From assembly GCA_016286055.1 (NCBI GenBank), contig JAEERW010000004.1, positions 62,001-126,000 on the forward strand: a stretch of 64,000 bases of DNA, in the 5' to 3' direction. A program made the position numbers and the translations under genes. The notes under the pieces are model-generated. The model was not told the origin of the DNA, did no database searches, and worked only from the letters and a program-made list of their open reading frames with translations. This document shows, one piece after another, positions 4,379 to 13,839 of the stretch; position 1 is the first letter of the stretch; each line of letters opens with the position of its first letter. This stretch comes from Bacteroidales bacterium (GTDB taxonomy: Bacteria > Bacteroidota > Bacteroidia > Bacteroidales > UBA3824).

Positions 4379-5911
4379 ATGAGCAACGATAAAAAAATAA
4401 AATCGGCACTGATCTCGGTATTCTACAAAACCGACCTCGACAAAATAGTAAGAAAACTTGCAGAACAGGAAGTTGAAATATATTCCACCGGCGGCACTCA
4501 GAAATTTATTGAGGGTCTCGGCGTAAAATGCAAAACAGTGGAAGGTCTCACCGGCTATCCCTCGATACTCGGTGGACGCGTAAAAACCCTCCACCCAAAA
4601 GTATTCGGCGGAATCCTTGCCCGCCGCGACAACGAAACCGACGCACAGGAAGCTGCTAAATACGAGATTCCTATGATGGACCTCGTGATTGTAGACCTCT
4701 ATCCCTTTGAGCAGACAGTGGCAAGCGGTGCGTCAGACCAAGACATCATCGAAAAGATAGATATAGGCGGCATCTCGCTCATCCGCGCAGCCGCTAAAAA
4801 CTATAAAGACGTAGTAATTGTTCCCTCAACAAACCAATACGCCGACATTCTTGAAATACTTGAAAATCAAAACGGTGTAACCACTTTGGAACAGCGTCGC
4901 GAATTTGCAAAGAAAGCATTTGCGGTATCTTCATACTACGACAGCAAAATTTTCACATATTTCGACGGTGGCAACGACCAATTCCACGCTAACCTCCGCA
5001 TTGCCGAAGACACCAAACAAGAGATGCGCTACGGCGAGAATCCTCACCAAAAAGCAATGTTCTTTGGCGACATCAATGCAATATTCGACAAACTTCACGG
5101 CAAAGACCTCTCTTACAACAATATGCTCGACGTAGACGCCGCTGTAAATATGATGAACGAATTTGACGAAACCACATTCATCATCATGAAGCACAACAAC
5201 GCCTGCGGTGTAGCTTGTCGCGAAACCTTGCTTCAGGCTTGGAAAGATTGCCTTGCCTGCGACCCCGTTTCGGCATTCGGCGGCGTAGTTATCACCAACC
5301 GTCAGATTACCAAAGAGGTGGCTCAGGAGATGAACTCACTATTTATGGAAGTTATCATTGCTCCCGGCTACGATCAGGAGGCTCTCGAAATTCTTGAAAC
5401 CAAAAAGAACCGCATTATCTTGGTTCAGAAAATCACCAAGACACCCACAACGCTCGTTCGCTCGGCTCTCAACGGATTTCTCTATCAAGAGCGCGACCTC
5501 AAAACAGAAACTCCCGACGACCTCACAAGCGTTACCGACAAGAAACCCACTCAGCAGGAAATAGAAAGTATGCTGTTTGCCAATAAAATTGTTAAGCACT
5601 CAAAATCAAATGCAATAGTACTTGCCAACCACAAGCAGCTCTACGCTTCGGGTATAGGACAGACCTCGCGTGTTGACGCTCTCAAACAGGCCATCGAAAA
5701 AGCCAAGAGTTTTGGATTCGACCTCAATGGCGCAGTTATGGCATCAGACGCATTTTTCCCGTTCGGCGACTGCGTGGAACTTGCTCACAATGCGGGCATT
5801 ACAAGCGTAATTCAACCCGGCGGAAGCGTTCGCGACAATGAAAGCATCGACTATTGCAACAAAAACGGCGTGGCCATGGTCTTCACTGGTGTACGCCACT
5901 TTAAACACTAA
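4379..5911 (+). CDS. purH: Bifunctional AICAR transformylase / IMP cyclohydrolase
   Basis: 510 aa; catalyses the last two steps of de novo purine synthesis, AICAR to FAICAR (using 10-formyl-THF) and then to IMP. The N-terminal MGS-like cyclohydrolase domain covers about residues 1-150 (STGGTQKF; GGRVKTLHPKVFGGILARR; IDIGGISLIRAAAKN). The transformylase domain follows with RYGENPHQ, the catalytic Lys271-His272 pair in KHNNACG, FPFGDCVE, IQPGGSVRDNE and the terminal VFTGVRHFKH. It is close in length to the E. coli enzyme (529 aa) and complete. folD at 37399 makes the C1-folate cofactor used here. The gap to mreB is only 61 bp, so readthrough into the shape operon is possible. Confidence 0.97.
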   Translation: MSNDKKIKSALISVFYKTDLDKIVRKLAEQEVEIYSTGGTQKFIEGLGVKCKTVEGLTGYPSILGGRVKTLHPKVFGGILARRDNETDAQEAAKYEIPMMDLVIVDLYPFEQTVASGASDQDIIEKIDIGGISLIRAAAKNYKDVVIVPSTNQYADILEILENQNGVTTLEQRREFAKKAFAVSSYYDSKIFTYFDGGNDQFHANLRIAEDTKQEMRYGENPHQKAMFFGDINAIFDKLHGKDLSYNNMLDVDAAVNMMNEFDETTFIIMKHNNACGVACRETLLQAWKDCLACDPVSAFGGVVITNRQITKEVAQEMNSLFMEVIIAPGYDQEALEILETKKNRIILVQKITKTPTTLVRSALNGFLYQERDLKTETPDDLTSVTDKKPTQQEIESMLFANKIVKHSKSNAIVLANHKQLYASGIGQTSRVDALKQAIEKAKSFGFDLNGAVMASDAFFPFGDCVELAHNAGITSVIQPGGSVRDNESIDYCNKNGVAMVFTGVRHFKH

Positions 5912-7910: not shown

Positions 7911-8422
7911 TGGATCTCAGGGGTTATCTAAAGGTTTTAGGTCAATATCTACTATTGGTATTATTGCAAGTGCTGATTTTCAACAATATAAAAATCAGTT
8001 CATTGGGTATTACACCTATGTTCTATGTTTTGTTTGTACTTATGGTGCCGTTTGAGGTTCCTAATTGGCTGCAACTCTTCTTTGCCTTTGTGCTGGGCTA
8101 CACTGTGGATATGTTTGCCGACACACCTGGACTCAACACGGCAGCTTCGGTATTTATGGCGTTTCTACGTCCCATGATGCTCAATATGCTCGCACCTCGC
8201 GACGGCTATGAGTCAGGTCTCTATCCATACGCTTCGTATATGGGTATGCAATGGTTCGTCCGTTACTGCGTGCCATTGGTTTTTGCCCACCATCTTTTTT
8301 TCTTCTTAATTGATTCAATAGGCTTTTTCTCATTCACTCAAATAGCAGCCAAAGTATTCTTCACTTCTGCGGTAACTATCTTATTTGTAATTCTATCGCA
8401 GTTTTTGATTACTAAGAAGTAA
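7910..8422 (+). CDS. mreD: Rod-shape-determining membrane protein MreD
   Basis: 170 aa, very hydrophobic, with about five predicted membrane helices (LLLVLLQVLIFNNI; FYVLFVLMVPFEV; LQLFFAFVLGYTVDMFAD; the VFAHHLFFFLID region; FTSAVTILFVILSQFL). The GYTVDMFADTPGLNTAASVFMAFLRP stretch matches the MreD signature. Identification rests on this pattern and on position after mreC, since MreD sequences are weakly conserved. In most Bacteroidota the next genes are mrdA (PBP2) and rodA. Here a xylanase follows only 55 bp later. Confidence 0.88.
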   Translation: MDLRGYLKVLGQYLLLVLLQVLIFNNIKISSLGITPMFYVLFVLMVPFEVPNWLQLFFAFVLGYTVDMFADTPGLNTAASVFMAFLRPMMLNMLAPRDGYESGLYPYASYMGMQWFVRYCVPLVFAHHLFFFLIDSIGFFSFTQIAAKVFFTSAVTILFVILSQFLITKK

Positions 8423-8477
8423 CATCTTTTAGTTGACCATACTCAACCATTTATTATTAATATTTAAATTCAATATC

Positions 8478-10235
8478 ATGAAAAAATTCTTGCTACTAAC
8501 ATTTGCAGCATTAATAGGATTATCTGGCTGCAAAAAGGACGACAACGACGACACAGTTGTCCCCGACAACAAACCTGACACCACACAAAAACAGGTAAAA
8601 CCGACCACTTCGATGCTTTGCATCCACAACAACAAAGTGTCGACTCAGGCATACCAGGTGCAATATGTGGTTGCCGACAACATTGGAGTAAAAAAAGGTA
8701 AACCGTACGAAATCATCATTAAGTTGAAAGCGTCGAACAATGCCAAACTATCATTTGTTATAGGCGACTGGACTAACACCGTCAGCCTTTCTATCAACGC
8801 CACAACCGAAATGAATGAATATAAATTGGCTTTTGAACCCAAAGTTGACGATGGTCATGTACTATTCCAAACTGGTGATTTTGTGGGCGACATCTACATC
8901 GAAAGCGTAAAAATTACTCACAAAGGCAGCGGACAAACTATTCCCCTTACCGAACAACAAAAACACGACACTCTTGTTTGGGCTATGGATCATTGGATTG
9001 AAGGAATGATGACCGCCACCAACGGTTATGTAAAATCTTGGGACGTGGTAAACGAGGCTATTGCGGGAGGTGGCAATATAAATGGATACTTCACTCTTCA
9101 ACACTCATCTAATCCCAACGACGATGAAGTGGTGGTACAATCGGGCAATTTCTTCTGGCAGGACTATATGGGCGACATTGATTATGTGCGTACAGCAGTA
9201 GCCAGCGCAAGAAAGCACTTCAAAGGCGACCCCGACGAACTGAAACTCTTTGTCAACGACTATAACCTTGAATCAGATTGGGACGACAACAAAAAACTCA
9301 AAAGCCTAATCTATTGGGTAGACAAATGGGAAGCTGACGGAGTTACCAAAATTGACGGTCTCGGAACTCAGATGCACATTTCGTATTACGATGATGAAGG
9401 CACTCAAAAAAGCAAGGAGGAGCACATTGTAAAAATGTTTGAACTGATGGCTGCCACTGGCAAACTTGTACGCGTGTCGGAACTCGATATGGGCTATATG
9501 CGTGGCAACACACAGCTCAAAACATCTCAAGTTACAGCTGCTGAACTACAGAAGATGGCTGATTATTACGAGTTTATTCTCAACAAATATTTTGAGATAG
9601 TACCTCCTGAGCAGCAATACGGATTCTGCCAATGGTGCATGACCGACGCTCCCGACAATACAAGCTGGAGAGCCGGCGAACCCGTAGGTATTTGGAAAGC
9701 TGGATACGTTAGGAAAGCTGCCTACAAAGGTTTTGCACAAGGTCTTGCTGAACAAAAGCTCTCCGACGACCTCGCCGACTTAAAGCCCCTCAAAAGCTAC
9801 ATCAAACGTTCAAACCATCCGATTTTCAAAATTAGCGGCGCTCTCGACGTTTCTGAGTTCAGCAGCAATGCCACACTCAAAACCATTGTAAAAGAAAACT
9901 TCGATGAAGTTGTGGCTGGCAATGCTATGAAATACCAATCGTGTGTTAATGGTGGCGGAGAGTTCGATTTCAGCCGAGTTAAAACATTTATAACTAATGC
10001 AAAAAACGCTGGCGTAACAATTTTTGGACACACACTGGCTTGGCATTCGCAACAACAACCCGGCTATCTGCTCGGACTTATGAAAGATATCGAAATTGAA
10101 GTGCCCGACAAAGAAAAGGTTGACGTGGTTAATTATTCAATTTCGTACGACAAAATTACAGAATACAAAATGTGGCGTTCCGACAACGATGCCAACAACA
10201 ACGTAGACTACTCAGTAAGTATAGTTAAACGATAA
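8478..10235 (+). CDS. Surface lipoprotein GH10 endo-1,4-beta-xylanase, circularly permuted
   Basis: 585 aa from the ATG at 8478. An upstream in-frame TTG at 8433 would bury the signal peptide. The lipobox LSGC sits at about residues 15-18, followed by an Asp-rich linker. Residues ~35-150 are part of a CBM4-like beta-sandwich (QVQYVVADNIGVKKGKPYEI...). GH10 barrel motifs then appear in this order: beta4 WDVVNEA with acid/base Glu193; beta5 KLFVNDYN; beta6 GLGTQMHI; beta7 VRVSELD with nucleophile Glu335; beta8 FCQWCMTDAPDNTSW; and only then beta1 FKISGALDVSEF (~449), beta2 FDEVVAGNAMKY (~474) and beta3 GHTLAWHSQQ (Trp522-His523). The last ~45 residues look like the missing first strands of the CBM. 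Ordinary Bacteroidota GH10 enzymes run beta1-3, inserted CBM, beta4-8. Both catalytic Glu and the substrate-binding WHSQ are present, so activity on xylan is plausible. No SusCD or other xylan gene is adjacent. Confidence 0.92.
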   Translation: MKKFLLLTFAALIGLSGCKKDDNDDTVVPDNKPDTTQKQVKPTTSMLCIHNNKVSTQAYQVQYVVADNIGVKKGKPYEIIIKLKASNNAKLSFVIGDWTNTVSLSINATTEMNEYKLAFEPKVDDGHVLFQTGDFVGDIYIESVKITHKGSGQTIPLTEQQKHDTLVWAMDHWIEGMMTATNGYVKSWDVVNEAIAGGGNINGYFTLQHSSNPNDDEVVVQSGNFFWQDYMGDIDYVRTAVASARKHFKGDPDELKLFVNDYNLESDWDDNKKLKSLIYWVDKWEADGVTKIDGLGTQMHISYYDDEGTQKSKEEHIVKMFELMAATGKLVRVSELDMGYMRGNTQLKTSQVTAAELQKMADYYEFILNKYFEIVPPEQQYGFCQWCMTDAPDNTSWRAGEPVGIWKAGYVRKAAYKGFAQGLAEQKLSDDLADLKPLKSYIKRSNHPIFKISGALDVSEFSSNATLKTIVKENFDEVVAGNAMKYQSCVNGGGEFDFSRVKTFITNAKNAGVTIFGHTLAWHSQQQPGYLLGLMKDIEIEVPDKEKVDVVNYSISYDKITEYKMWRSDNDANNNVDYSVSIVKR

Positions 10236-10256
10236 TAATCTGATTATCTGATAAAA

Positions 10257-10293
10257 AAAACTGCAACCCTAAATGAGGATTGCAGTTTTTTTT
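10257..10293. terminator. Bidirectional terminator between the xylanase gene and oadB
   Basis: The arms AAAACTGCAA (10257-10266) and TTGCAGTTTT (10280-10289) form a perfect 10-bp stem, extended inward by CCT/AGG. It is flanked by A8 on one side and T8 on the other, so it can serve both convergent genes. Confidence 0.85.
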
Positions 10294-10316
10294 ATATTAT
10301 TAAATTGCTTCGAATC

Positions 10317-11705
10317 TTATCCCAAGAATGCAATCAATATACCTGCTGCCACTGCTGAGCCGATAACGCCCGAAACGTTTGACGACATGCAGTAGTTGAG
10401 TACGTGGTTGCGGGGGTCGTATTTAAGAGCAATGTCGTTGGCAACACGTGATGCCATGGGCACTGCGCTAAGTCCGGTGGCTCCAACAAGCGGATTAACT
10501 TTCTTCTTAGAGAAGAGGTTGTAGATTTTGGCAAGCATAATGCCGCCGAAAATCGAGAATCCAAATGCCAAGAATCCACCTGCTACGATTCCGATGGTTG
10601 TCCAGTTGAGGAATGCGTCAACGGTCATTGTAGCACCTACGCTGAGTCCAAGGAATATTGTAGCCGAGTTCATAATGGCGTTGGATGCAGCATCAAAAAT
10701 ACGAGATGTAGAGTTTCCAACCTCTTTAATCAAGTTTCCGAACATCAACATACCTACCAACGGAACTGCCGAAGGAACGATGATGGCAACTACAGTGGTG
10801 GTTGCAATCGGGAAAATGATTTTCAAAACTCGCATATTTTTGAACTCTGTTTTTGAAGGATAGAGTTTGTCTTGCTCCTTCATGTTGATTGAGAGTTCTT
10901 TTTTGCTACAAGTAAGTTTTACCACCAAAGGAACAATCACAGGCACGAGAGCCATGTAAGAGTAAGCTGCAATGGCGATAGGACCAAGAAGGTGAGGAGC
11001 CAATTTAATGGTAGTGAAGATAGCCGTAGGACCGTCGGCACCACCGATGATAGCGAGCGAACCAGCCTCTTGCAAGGAGAAGAAGTTGCAAGCCACGAGC
11101 AATACGGCAAAGATACCAAACTGAGCACCTGCGCCAAAGATTGCGAGTTTGAGGTTGCGAAGCATAGGACCAAAGTCAGTCAACGCACCTACGCCCATAA
11201 AGATAATCGGAGGAAGCATACCGCTCTTAATCAATGCGTAATAGATAAAGTTCATTACACCAAATTCGTGAGCGATATCGTGCAAAGGCATATCCCAAAT
11301 TTTGAAAATCTCAATATGGTTTAAAATGTCAGGAGTTTCCAAAATGGGATTCTTTGCCAAGTCGTACCATAATGCACCTACTTGCACAAATCCTTCTTGA
11401 AATTCTTTAACACCCTCTTTTAATGGAAGATACTTAAATCCATCAAGACCATTGTTAAAGAACGAATTAGCAACTCTAAATAGTTCGCCTTCGCCGTTCA
11501 CAGCCAAAACGCCCATGTCGCCGCCCGGAAAGTTGGCAATCAACACACCGAACGCGATAGGAATCAGCAACAACGGCTCATACTGCTTTTTGATACCCAA
11601 ATAGAGCAACAGAAAAGCCAAGGCGTACATTATCAGAAACTGCGGCTGATCGAAAAGCGAATCAAGCGCAGTCATGTGGAAAATATTACTGAAAACTTCT
11701 CTCAT
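10317..11705 (-). CDS. oadB: Sodium-translocating decarboxylase beta subunit
   Basis: 462 aa, with about ten membrane helices. It is the integral-membrane subunit that decarboxylates carboxybiotin and exports Na+. Family-typical segments are visible: LLIPIAFGVLIANFPGGDMG near the N-terminus, GAGAQFGIFAVLL, the conserved ion-pathway region IIGGADGPTAIFT, GNLIKEVGNSTSRIFDAASNAIMN, and the end NHVLNYCMSSNVSGVIGSAVAAGI. Compared with ~375-430 aa homologues it has a longer N-terminal region (about residues 55-130: VNGEGELFRVANSFFNNGLDGFKYLPLKEGVKEF), as seen in other Bacteroidota beta subunits. It is the last gene of the gamma-alpha-beta operon; the start is 4 bp after the alpha-subunit stop. Confidence 0.92.
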   Translation of the reverse strand: MREVFSNIFHMTALDSLFDQPQFLIMYALAFLLLYLGIKKQYEPLLLIPIAFGVLIANFPGGDMGVLAVNGEGELFRVANSFFNNGLDGFKYLPLKEGVKEFQEGFVQVGALWYDLAKNPILETPDILNHIEIFKIWDMPLHDIAHEFGVMNFIYYALIKSGMLPPIIFMGVGALTDFGPMLRNLKLAIFGAGAQFGIFAVLLVACNFFSLQEAGSLAIIGGADGPTAIFTTIKLAPHLLGPIAIAAYSYMALVPVIVPLVVKLTCSKKELSINMKEQDKLYPSKTEFKNMRVLKIIFPIATTTVVAIIVPSAVPLVGMLMFGNLIKEVGNSTSRIFDAASNAIMNSATIFLGLSVGATMTVDAFLNWTTIGIVAGGFLAFGFSIFGGIMLAKIYNLFSKKKVNPLVGATGLSAVPMASRVANDIALKYDPRNHVLNYCMSSNVSGVIGSAVAAGILIAFLG

Positions 11706-11709
11706 TGCC

Positions 11710-13839
11710 TTACTTTATTTTCATTAAAACATCGTCTTCCGAAACCGAATCGCCTGATTTGAAGCAGATTTCGGCAATTACACCGTCTGATTCGGCGGCT
11801 ATGGCGTTGAAGGTTTTCATCGCCTCGATGTAGCAAACGGTCTGACCTTTTTTAACAGCATCGCCAACTTTTACAGCGGGGTCGCCAGTGTTTTTTACAA
11901 GGTAGAACTTGCCTTCGAGTGGCGAAGTGAGGTCTGCTGCATTGCCCGATGCTGCGGGAGCGGCTGTTTCGCCTTCGGCAGCGATACGCATAATTACATC
12001 GTCTTCTGAAACCGAATCACCTGATTTGAAGCAGATTTCGGTGATTACGCCGTCACATTCGGCTGCAATGGCGTTGAAGGTTTTCATAGCTTCGATGTAG
12101 CATACTGTCTGACCTTTTTTAACCTTGTCGCCAACTTTTACAGCGGGGTCGCCAGAGTTTTTAACCAAGTAGAACTTGCCTTCGAGCGGTGCTGTAAGGG
12201 GTTTGCCTGTTCCAGCTGCGGCAGGTGCTGATGCAGCGGGAGCGGCTGATTTGCCGTCGTTTGCACCGATTGTAACTGCGTATTTAACACCGTTAACGTC
12301 AACTGTAACAGTCTGCGGGAACGATGCCAATGCAGGAACGTTTGATCCGCCTTTGCCAGCTTTTTCGGCTTTGCGTTTTGCGAGGTCGGCTTCAAAATCT
12401 CTCTTGGCTGCGCCTGATTTGTACAAGCGGTACTGCTGCGGGTGCATTGCAAGTTCAAAGAGCTCTTCGTCGTCTTCGCCAAAATCCCAGCCGTTGTCTT
12501 TCATCTCCTTGCGGAACGAGTCGAGTGCGTCGGGATATTCGTCCTGAGGATTGCCGGTGAAAAATTCGCGACCCTGCTGTTTTGCAAGTTCCACGAGTTC
12601 GGGAGCCACTTCGCCAGGCAGTTTGCCCGATTTTCCAAGCAACATACCCCAGATATCGTCGGCGATAAGGCTCCAACGCTCTTTGCCTTTTTCCATCTGC
12701 ATAACGTTGGTGAGAGCCATATTCTTAACGTACTGGCTAAAAGGTGTTACCAATGGAGGATAGCCCATCTTAGGCCAAACGTATGTTACCTCGTCGAAGA
12801 GTTTTATCATAAGTTCGTCCTGTGTAAGTTTGGGCAGGTTGTGTTTCTCTTTGTATTTGTTTACCGATTCGAGGTTAGATTCGAGGTCGGTCATAAGCGA
12901 ACCCATCATACCGCCTGGCAAACCAGGAGCGATAAGGAGCGAGTTCATAAAGCGGTTGCGCTGAGGAATATAGTATCCGAGGAAATCGTCCATCATCTCT
13001 TGAATCAACGAACGAACTTCCATATAAGCGCTCATATTGATCTCTTTAACGTCGAAACCAGCATCTTTCAACATAGGCTGAACGGCGAGGATGTCAACGT
13101 GTCCTGTACCCCAAGAGAGGGGCTCCATACCAACGTCAACGTAGTCGCAACCAGCTTTACATACTTCCAAAACAGAAGCCATAGCAAAACCAGGACCTGC
13201 GTGAGAGTGGTATTCTACAACTATATCTTTGTAATCTTTGATGCCTTTAACTATTTTGCCGAGTTTTACGGGACGGCCAATACCAGCCATATCCTTGATA
13301 CAGATTTCGTCGGCACCTGCGTCGATAAGCTGCTTAGCAAGGTTTACGTAGTATTCAACAGTGTGAATAGGGCTTTCGGTGATGCAGAGGCAGCACTGCG
13401 AAATCATGTGAGTGCCGTCGGGACGGGTGGCTGCATGTGCGTATCCGATAGAGGGGATAATGTTTCTCGGGTCGTTCAAACCGCAGAAAGTACGTGCGAT
13501 GTCGGTACCCTGAGTATATTTTACTTTGTAGAAAAGTTTGCGAACGTCAACTGGGCAAGGGTTCATACGGATGCCGTTGAGTGCGCGGTCGAGCATTTCG
13601 GTTTGAATACCTGCCTCGTGAAAAGGTTTGGTCCATGCACGAACCGATTTGTTAGGATTTTCGCCGTAAAGGAGGTTAACCTGCTCAAAACCACCGCCGT
13701 TGGTTTCAACGCGGTCGAAGCAGCCCATCTTTATAATAGCGGGGGCAACTTTTAAAAGTTGGTCGACACGTGGCTGATATTTACCCGAACTCTGCCACAA
13801 GTCTCTGAATACAAGGTTGAATTTTACTTGTTTGCTCAT
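11710..13839 (-). CDS. oadA: Biotin-dependent decarboxylase alpha subunit (oxaloacetate decarboxylase type) with two biotinyl domains
   Basis: 709 aa, longer than the usual ~600. Residues ~1-300 form the carboxyltransferase TIM barrel (LVFRDLWQSSGKYQPRVDQLL; ICIKDMAGIGRP; metal-ligand motif EYHSHAGPG). A PYC/OADA-type conserved domain reaches about residue 480. Two biotinyl/lipoyl domains about 89 residues apart then follow an Ala/Pro-rich linker, each with EAMKTFN. The biotin-accepting lysines are Lys586 and Lys675. The usual motif in this family is EAMKM. The copies are nearly identical in protein and DNA, which points to a recent tandem duplication. The barrel has WQS where many homologues have HQS, so the exact keto-acid substrate (oxaloacetate is the best guess) is inferred from the operon partners. 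Confidence 0.9.
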   Translation of the reverse strand: MSKQVKFNLVFRDLWQSSGKYQPRVDQLLKVAPAIIKMGCFDRVETNGGGFEQVNLLYGENPNKSVRAWTKPFHEAGIQTEMLDRALNGIRMNPCPVDVRKLFYKVKYTQGTDIARTFCGLNDPRNIIPSIGYAHAATRPDGTHMISQCCLCITESPIHTVEYYVNLAKQLIDAGADEICIKDMAGIGRPVKLGKIVKGIKDYKDIVVEYHSHAGPGFAMASVLEVCKAGCDYVDVGMEPLSWGTGHVDILAVQPMLKDAGFDVKEINMSAYMEVRSLIQEMMDDFLGYYIPQRNRFMNSLLIAPGLPGGMMGSLMTDLESNLESVNKYKEKHNLPKLTQDELMIKLFDEVTYVWPKMGYPPLVTPFSQYVKNMALTNVMQMEKGKERWSLIADDIWGMLLGKSGKLPGEVAPELVELAKQQGREFFTGNPQDEYPDALDSFRKEMKDNGWDFGEDDEELFELAMHPQQYRLYKSGAAKRDFEADLAKRKAEKAGKGGSNVPALASFPQTVTVDVNGVKYAVTIGANDGKSAAPAASAPAAAGTGKPLTAPLEGKFYLVKNSGDPAVKVGDKVKKGQTVCYIEAMKTFNAIAAECDGVITEICFKSGDSVSEDDVIMRIAAEGETAAPAASGNAADLTSPLEGKFYLVKNTGDPAVKVGDAVKKGQTVCYIEAMKTFNAIAAESDGVIAEICFKSGDSVSEDDVLMKIK
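11725..12180 (-). repeat. Tandem duplication of the biotinyl-domain coding sequence
   Basis: Two direct copies, about 11725-11915 and 11990-12180, lie in phase inside the alpha-subunit gene. They encode TSPLEGKFYLVKNTGDPAVK and TAPLEGKFYLVKNSGDPAVK followed by near-identical 60-residue stretches. Differences are few and mostly silent or conservative, such as AESDGVIAE against AECDGVITE. Confidence 0.9.

Follow-up and report, generated by a model that had tools for sequence, protein, structure and literature searches.

The GH10 family belongs to clan GH-A, and the strand order beta1 to beta8 is usual among its members, although it is not what defines the family. In Bacteroidota GH10 enzymes, a CBM inserted after beta3 is common (PMC7848910; PMC5041131), as in BiXyn10A and BiXyn10C of Bacteroides intestinalis, where it lies between beta3 and alpha3 (PMC5041131), and in Pm25 from a termite-gut Bacteroides (PMC7848910). 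The GH70 glucansucrases are a natural circular permutation, which runs from alpha3-beta4 to beta8 and then from beta1 to beta3; their domain B is discontiguous and formed from both chain ends. Permuted and non-permuted members exist, and an origin by duplication, fusion and truncation has been proposed (PMC4919382). Domain B is an insertion after beta3 in GH13. A permuted beta/alpha barrel has also been engineered (Luger et al. 1989, cited in PMC2893209), reportedly a laboratory-made protein that is not a GH10 and has no inserted domain. Natural permutations are known mainly from comparisons of old families, in which the intermediate steps have been lost. We found no described natural permutation of a GH10 enzyme in the open-licence PMC literature searched, in line with the original prediction, which knew of none; subscription journals and CAZy were outside this scope, and absence is not shown.

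The gene described here lies in a 64,000-nucleotide stretch of DNA from gut Bacteroidales, which is referred to as the window. Like BiXyn10A, BiXyn10C and Pm25, its product has the GH10 catalytic motifs and a CBM in the beta3-alpha3 loop; this CBM is related to CBM1 of BiXyn10A (4mgs), and the PUL context of Bacteroidota GH10 xylanases is found in relatives of the window gene. Unlike in these xylanases, strands beta4 to beta8 precede beta1 to beta3, both chain ends lie in the CBM, and the signal runs into the CBM and not into beta1. As in GH70, the cut lies between beta3 and alpha3/beta4 within an inserted domain, a parallel that the original prediction did not draw; there is no sequence match, and family and clan differ (GH70 belongs to GH-H). 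The two forms of GH70 are old subfamilies, whereas those of the GH10 gene occur as alternatives at a single locus within one genus. The engineered barrel offers a further parallel, in that a barrel tolerates new ends. The permuted and the canonical GH10 genes retain an identity of about 60% or more, so that the steps, cost and benefit of a permutation are directly testable in this genus; close relatives have the canonical form at the same chromosomal place, which puts the rearrangement within reach near its origin. The same cut as in GH70, in a family of undetectable similarity, suggests that a barrel can be opened safely within a domain inserted after beta3.

Circularly permuted segment order of the window gene

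The gene is a single intact open reading frame for 585 residues on the + strand, from the ATG at 8478 to the stop codon at 10233-10235, and encodes, in this order, a lipoprotein signal, the distal part of a CBM, GH10 strands beta4 to beta8, a joint, strands beta1 to beta3 and the proximal part of the CBM (Table 1). The motifs WDVVNEA (beta4, residues 188-194), NDYN (beta5, 260-263), GTQMH (beta6, 296-300), SELD (beta7, 334-337) and QWCMTD (beta8, 385-390) are followed by GALDV (beta1, 454-458), NAMKY (beta2, 482-486) and GHTLAWH (beta3, 517-523). The protein matches PF00331 (GH10) with 161 bits at a cut-off of 22.1 (E 5e-47), which places it in GH10 by sequence, and it departs from the usual strand order beta1 to beta8: in a profile scan of its own genome, PF00331 positions 96-309 come first, and positions 10-92 follow. 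The remaining two GH10 genes of this genome have the normal profile order, and the permuted gene is a single copy in the interior of a contig (C22) of the 36-contig assembly. The protein matched 132 PDB chains, and in the three alignments inspected the order is swapped: the early part of the chain pairs with the C-terminal stretch of the query, and the late part with its N-terminal stretch. A Pfam scan at E up to 1 returned GH10 and two weak unrelated families, with no similarity to GH70 or GH13.

Glu193 (9054-9056), which we take to be the acid/base, Glu335 (9480-9482), taken to be the nucleophile, Trp522 and His523 are all present at these positions; the roles of the four residues are those known from the GH10 family. 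The window gene is a GH10 with a circularly permuted segment order. The original prediction had read the motifs as beta4 to beta8 followed by beta1 to beta3, with the four key residues in one open frame, and both claims held, each motif being located in the ORF; the GH10 profile, to which it proposed to align the two segments separately, falls on the gene in two pieces in the order claimed.

Table 1 Features of the permuted GH10 gene and of the adjoining intergenic region (window coordinates)
Feature	Position	Strand	Basis
Lipoprotein signal peptide, lipobox LSGC, Cys18 at 8529-8531	8478..8531	+	Sequence, by eye
Polar linker, residues 19-44	8532..8609	+	Sequence; AlphaFold pLDDT under 50 at residues 1-39
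Distal (second) CBM part, ~residues 45-150	8610..8927	+	Match to 4mgs, Foldseek
GH10 beta4 to beta8/alpha8, ~residues 151-424	8928..9749	+	PF00331 positions 96-309
Joint, old C-terminus to old N-terminus, 13 residues (425-437)	9750..9788	+	Comparison of permuted proteins, pLDDT
GH10 beta1 to beta3, ~residues 438-535	9789..10082	+	PF00331 positions 10-92
Proximal (first) CBM part, ~residues 536-585, plus stop codon	10083..10235	+	L055 equivalent aligned with 4mgs
Terminator-like inverted repeat with T tract	10251..10295		20-nt arms, 95% complementary

The inverted repeat sits between the convergent xylanase and OAD beta genes and is absent from the list returned by a terminator scan; a search for promoter motifs gave nothing informative. 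A 21-nt direct repeat (8615 and 10038, 86% identical) was put down to chance. The carboxylase next door (HMGL-like, PYC_OADA; 11713-13839, - strand) ends at its C-terminus in two tandem biotinyl domains, which are very similar, with Biotin_lipoyl matches in two stretches and off-diagonal blastn matches.

Occurrence and genomic position of the permuted and canonical forms

Matches at E up to 1e-10 were found in 16 of 18 genomes of the genus, and six of the 18 have the permuted order, five with a full-length gene and one with a gene cut by a contig end. Besides the window genome these are G015, G007, G011, G016 and G013, with 96, 65, 64, 63 and 60% identity to the window gene, respectively, so that homologues of the same order, which the original prediction had proposed to search for, exist in five other genomes, in four of them at full length. 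The G007 gene is broken by the contig end, yet it spans from beta6 across the joint to the end of the CBM. All six genes have the same cut, and the joint is 13 residues long in five and 14 in the sixth. A canonical gene of the same clade (GH10-B) is present in seven of the 18 genomes (G001, G002, G003, G005, G008, G012 and G014), without a CBM insert in G001, and no clade member was identified in G004, G006, G009, G010 and G017, several of which are incomplete. None of the 13 genomes with a GH10-B gene was seen to carry both forms together.

Separately, the CBM slot after beta3 turns over: it holds only 10 residues in G001 (L062:8704-10011) and 7 in L045:4884-6311, and the G012 gene (L060:3545-5494) has a CBM_4_9-type domain with a Pfam match, unlike the siblings tested.

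A scan of public genome contigs gave 17 loci, 15 canonical and two permuted, the latter from yak rumen MAGs (RGIG10234 and RGIG10068) that are already counted here as G015 and G011. When 393 Bacteroidales genomes, drawn evenly, were searched with a profile of the five permuted proteins, with a maximum of three candidates scored per genome, 28 matched at E up to 1e-30, and a single colinear match to the whole profile was obtained only in the window genome and G016. Of 20 genomes from the family that includes the closest relatives identified outside the genus, 11 matched at E up to 1e-120, without a full-length match, and the ten loci returned, from the nearest outside genus, all read as canonical. 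A phylum-wide PF00331 scan gave matches in 101 of 395 genomes and does not exclude further permuted GH10s. Because the outside relatives are canonical and the colinear matches restricted, the permuted form seems derived, and it has so far been seen in one genus only, in genome sets that included no metagenome collections. The same order in independent genomes and the canonical order in the nearest relatives, which we took as a criterion for a natural permutation, are both observed.

In G003 the canonical gene belongs to a cluster that begins with SusC-like, SusD, BT_3987-like/DUF5627 and large multi-CBM GH10 (GH10-A) genes and continues with GH10-B, an esterase/GH5 gene, DUF6057 and a PD40 protein, the neighbouring genes being named from the Pfam hits of one to three proteins in each blastp group. 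The permuted gene of G016 occupies exactly the GH10-B position of this PUL; in G011 it lies 3' of GH10-A and 5' of the esterase gene, and in G013 the DUF6057 and PD40 genes come after it. The SusC-like piece of G011 has no Pfam match, and the SusC-like proteins of G012 have Plug and CarbopepD_reg domains. In the window and in G015 the order is mreB, mreC, mreD, permuted GH10, OAD beta and carboxylase, with mreD assigned by position, without a Pfam hit. In G012 the same flanks as in the window enclose a cluster with two SusC-like/SusD pairs, GH10 and esterase/GH5 genes, and the canonical GH10-B adjoins OAD beta. The permuted and canonical forms share one slot, either in a xylan-type PUL or beside oadB; that both occur at the same locus within the genus was not part of the original prediction.

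In the window (8422-8478) the permuted xylanase stands alone between mreD and OAD beta, where G012 has the cluster (L065:4965-8702); loss of the cluster in the window lineage and its gain in G012 remain undecided. A recent rearrangement of the G012 gene at this locus is not supported, because DNA identity is 84-91% in the flanks but just 76% in the C-terminal half of the GH10 gene, and because beta1-3 of the window gene had no blastn match to the G012 GH10-B. The SASA-type esterase and GH5 form one fused protein in G016 (L052:10011-12143) and in G012 (L060:8695-10764), and are two adjacent genes in G011 (L051:9520-10659 and 10672-12111).

Predicted structure, chain ends and lipid anchor

For the AlphaFold model of the permuted protein, the input alignment comprised the window sequence together with two of its permuted relatives and 26 fragments drawn from 13 canonical ones. 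The model has a mean pLDDT of 80.7 and a pTM of 0.75, with strands at all eight barrel positions, that of beta2 being just three residues long, and with a pLDDT of 95-96 across the joint (residues 421-450). The weaker folded parts are residues 191-230, 481-500, 521-530 and 561-580, and pLDDT falls to 63-67 at 481-500 and to 63 at 521-530, which are parts of beta2-beta3. A canonical control, modelled from a shallower alignment (8 rows), gave a pLDDT of 73.6 and a pTM of 0.68. Among 50 PDB hits of the permuted model in a search with Foldseek, which keeps sequence order, most were GH10 structures, aligned over about 256-299 columns with target TM of 0.50-0.57; four two-domain xylanase chains aligned over 516-530 columns with a poor TM of 0.34-0.38, and 4mgs over 103 columns at 1.0 Å. 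The control aligned over 531-573 columns with TM of 0.71-0.84, except for four chains of the same two-domain xylanase types (0.36-0.38). Alignment of about half a barrel for the permuted model, and of both halves for the control, is what a permuted barrel should give, and does not prove closure. From the model we infer that beta4-8 and beta1-3 close one (beta/alpha)8 barrel through the 13-residue joint. The check for a closed barrel named in the original prediction is thereby answered in part, by eight predicted strands and a confidently modelled joint, closure itself being inferred.

Residues 34-149 of the window protein pair with residues 33-148 of the CBM in 4mgs (titled BiXyn10A CBM1). In the canonical relative L055 the CBM is uninterrupted and aligned to 4mgs 4-148, and the L055 stretch equivalent to the window C-terminus aligns with approximately the first 40 residues of 4mgs. 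In the alignment the cut point is the turn immediately ahead of MLCIHNNK in the window protein and of KMLHIKNNK in L055, and the L055 sequence preceding KMLHIKNNK corresponds to the window C-terminus. The N- and C-terminal pieces match complementary parts of one CBM, and therefore both ends fall within it, which supports the predicted position of the new termini inside a CBM inserted after beta3. Both chain ends thus lie at one CBM turn, and we infer, without binding data, that each is needed for a complete CBM.

The predicted lipoprotein signal is likewise supported by the lipobox LSGC. The mature protein would start with CKKDDN, which fits the surface-export signal C-X-K-(D/E)2-X, described as optimal in Capnocytophaga (PMC5080379), a genus other than that of the window. 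The product is a putative surface xylanase tethered via its CBM, with activity, CBM binding and surface exposure only inferred. The likeliest consequence of the permutation, by inference, is mechanical. In a (beta/alpha)8 barrel the chain starts on the face opposite the active site, so the lipid anchor of the canonical form, which precedes beta1, would hold the barrel by its back. The permuted form has the anchor ahead of the CBM, and this CBM sits in the beta3-alpha3 loop on the side of the active site; such an enzyme would be suspended at the cell surface through its CBM, its barrel facing the opposite way. If this model is right, the anchor has moved from barrel to CBM, a natural experiment on the orientation of surface glycan-degrading enzymes.

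Between the window and G015 genes, the two closest permuted ones, dN/dS is 0.127 overall, 0.19 for the distal CBM, 0.15 for beta4-8, 0.02 for beta1-3 and 0.08 for the proximal CBM; the joint has zero amino-acid changes, and the signal and linker are identical in DNA. Selection on both barrel segments was a further criterion for a natural permutation, and is borne out by the values for beta4-8 and beta1-3. All eight motifs checked, including the WD..NE and SELD contexts of the Glu residues, are present in the five full-length permuted proteins. The gene is under purifying selection with its catalytic motifs intact, and we infer, without activity data, that it encodes a functional GH10 endo-xylanase.

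Origin of the permutation

Segment trees were built from the six permuted genes and 23 other GH10 rows, which represent 21 distinct genes (G385 and G245 each appear twice) and of which four lie outside the GH10-B group; a smaller set has 13 other rows, and the distant GH10 A063 was left out of both. With the 23 rows, neither beta1-3 (AU p 0.003) nor beta4-5 (AU p 0.0014) allows the permuted genes to form a single clade, while in beta6-8, the segment beside the joint, one permuted clade is the best tree; the 13-row set shows the same pattern of disagreement among segments. Support for the beta6-8 clade is low (bootstrap 69 with 13 others and 49 with 23 rows), and alternative groupings are not rejected in the 23-row set (p 0.11-0.48). 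In the 13-row set, removal of the diagnostic columns leaves the clade 6.4 log units short of the best tree, though not rejected (p 0.41). L368, F383 and Q421 are common to all six permuted genes and absent from all 23 other rows (21 distinct genes), and the same comparison gave no permuted-specific shared residues in beta1-3 or beta4-5.

The window gene groups with canonical G001 in beta1-3, a grouping that is rejected for beta4-5 (0.0025), and with canonical G012 in beta4-5, a grouping rejected for beta1-3 (0.0078). In beta6-8 the pairing of the window and G012 genes is rejected in the smaller set (13 others, p 0.0007) but not in the larger one (23 rows, p 0.24). The reciprocal rejection of the G001 and G012 groupings points to recombination, and the permuted genes are most likely mosaics, a property absent from the original prediction. 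In a tree of GH10-A and GH10-B (44 rows minus two without the beta1-3 half and four repeated genes, leaving 38), the GH10-B clade of seven canonical and six permuted genes has a bootstrap of 100 for the concatenated segments, 100 for beta1-3 and 75 for beta4-8. A fusion joining GH10-A, the large gene upstream, to the GH10-B that follows it is rejected, because both permuted halves fall in the GH10-B clade.

We consider it likely that the gene is a natural permutation of a functional GH10 xylanase, which arose in a single event and later traded its flanking segments with canonical genes, function and history being inferred. In this scheme a canonical single-CBM gene would have been duplicated in tandem, the two copies fused and the outer parts lost, leaving the new ends at the CBM turn. 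The permutation would have happened once, and the flanks would later have been swapped with canonical genes by homologous recombination, with the joint retained. The tandem duplication with loss of the outer halves in the original prediction is plausible and fits a replacement in place, although the ORFs examined, which did not come from a dedicated search, contained no duplicated or fused intermediate.

An assembly join of tandem GH10 copies, which the original prediction named as its refutation, is all but excluded. The compared genomes are probably all metagenome assemblies, there is no read evidence, and adjacent GH10 genes do occur in relatives. Against this, five further genomes have the permuted order with 60-96% identity to the window gene, G015 is colinear with the window across 18.7 kb at 91% DNA identity, repeats longer than 21 nt are absent from the gene at the threshold used, and dN/dS over the gene is low. 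An assembly accident was set aside, in the absence of reads, on the same order, cut and 13-14 residue joint in six genomes. In another rival reading the two segments do not close in one chain, the protein acting instead as a swapped dimer or, with an inactive catalytic part, as a xylan binder. The structure is modelled and not measured, the order-keeping fold search covers just about half of the barrel, and pLDDT is lower in parts of beta2-beta3; nevertheless, the catalytic and subsite motifs of both halves are retained in the five full-length permuted proteins, dN/dS is well under 1 in both halves, and the short joint is modelled with confidence as a monomer, which makes this reading unlikely.

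More than one origin is harder to dismiss. Two or three independent permutations could have opened the chain at this one CBM turn, if few other positions tolerate a cut, with the joint-side residues as convergent adaptations. In favour, a single permuted clade is rejected in the trees of beta1-3 and beta4-5, where the permuted genes stand next to different canonical genes, and the shared changes lie in residues 365-421, which adjoin the joint in the chain. On the other side, the cut is identical in all six genes with a joint of nearly constant length, the best beta6-8 tree holds one permuted clade, and the reciprocal rejection of groupings inside the window gene suggests recombination. Recurrent permutation therefore remains possible but improbable. 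A bolder reading, which we also regard as doubtful, has repeated permutation at one CBM turn with canonical and permuted forms interconverting at the xylan locus; if true, it would be a recurring switch of the tethered end, and so of the way in which the CBM and the active site are presented to the fibre. A single event with later exchange of flanks remains our preferred reading.

As to markers of the genomes themselves, rpoB was located in 10 of 20, and purH was obtained as a full-length single piece in four of 15, in two pieces in two and as weak matches only in nine. Among the window genome, G015, G005 and G012, purH (4379-5911 in the window; loci L096-L115) shows 98-99% identity, with the G005 and G012 matches in pieces, and the nine other genomes of the genus searched gave only weak matches, of 51-57% over about 70 residues plus pieces of 27-30%. 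From these strong and weak matches the genus seems to be split in purH.
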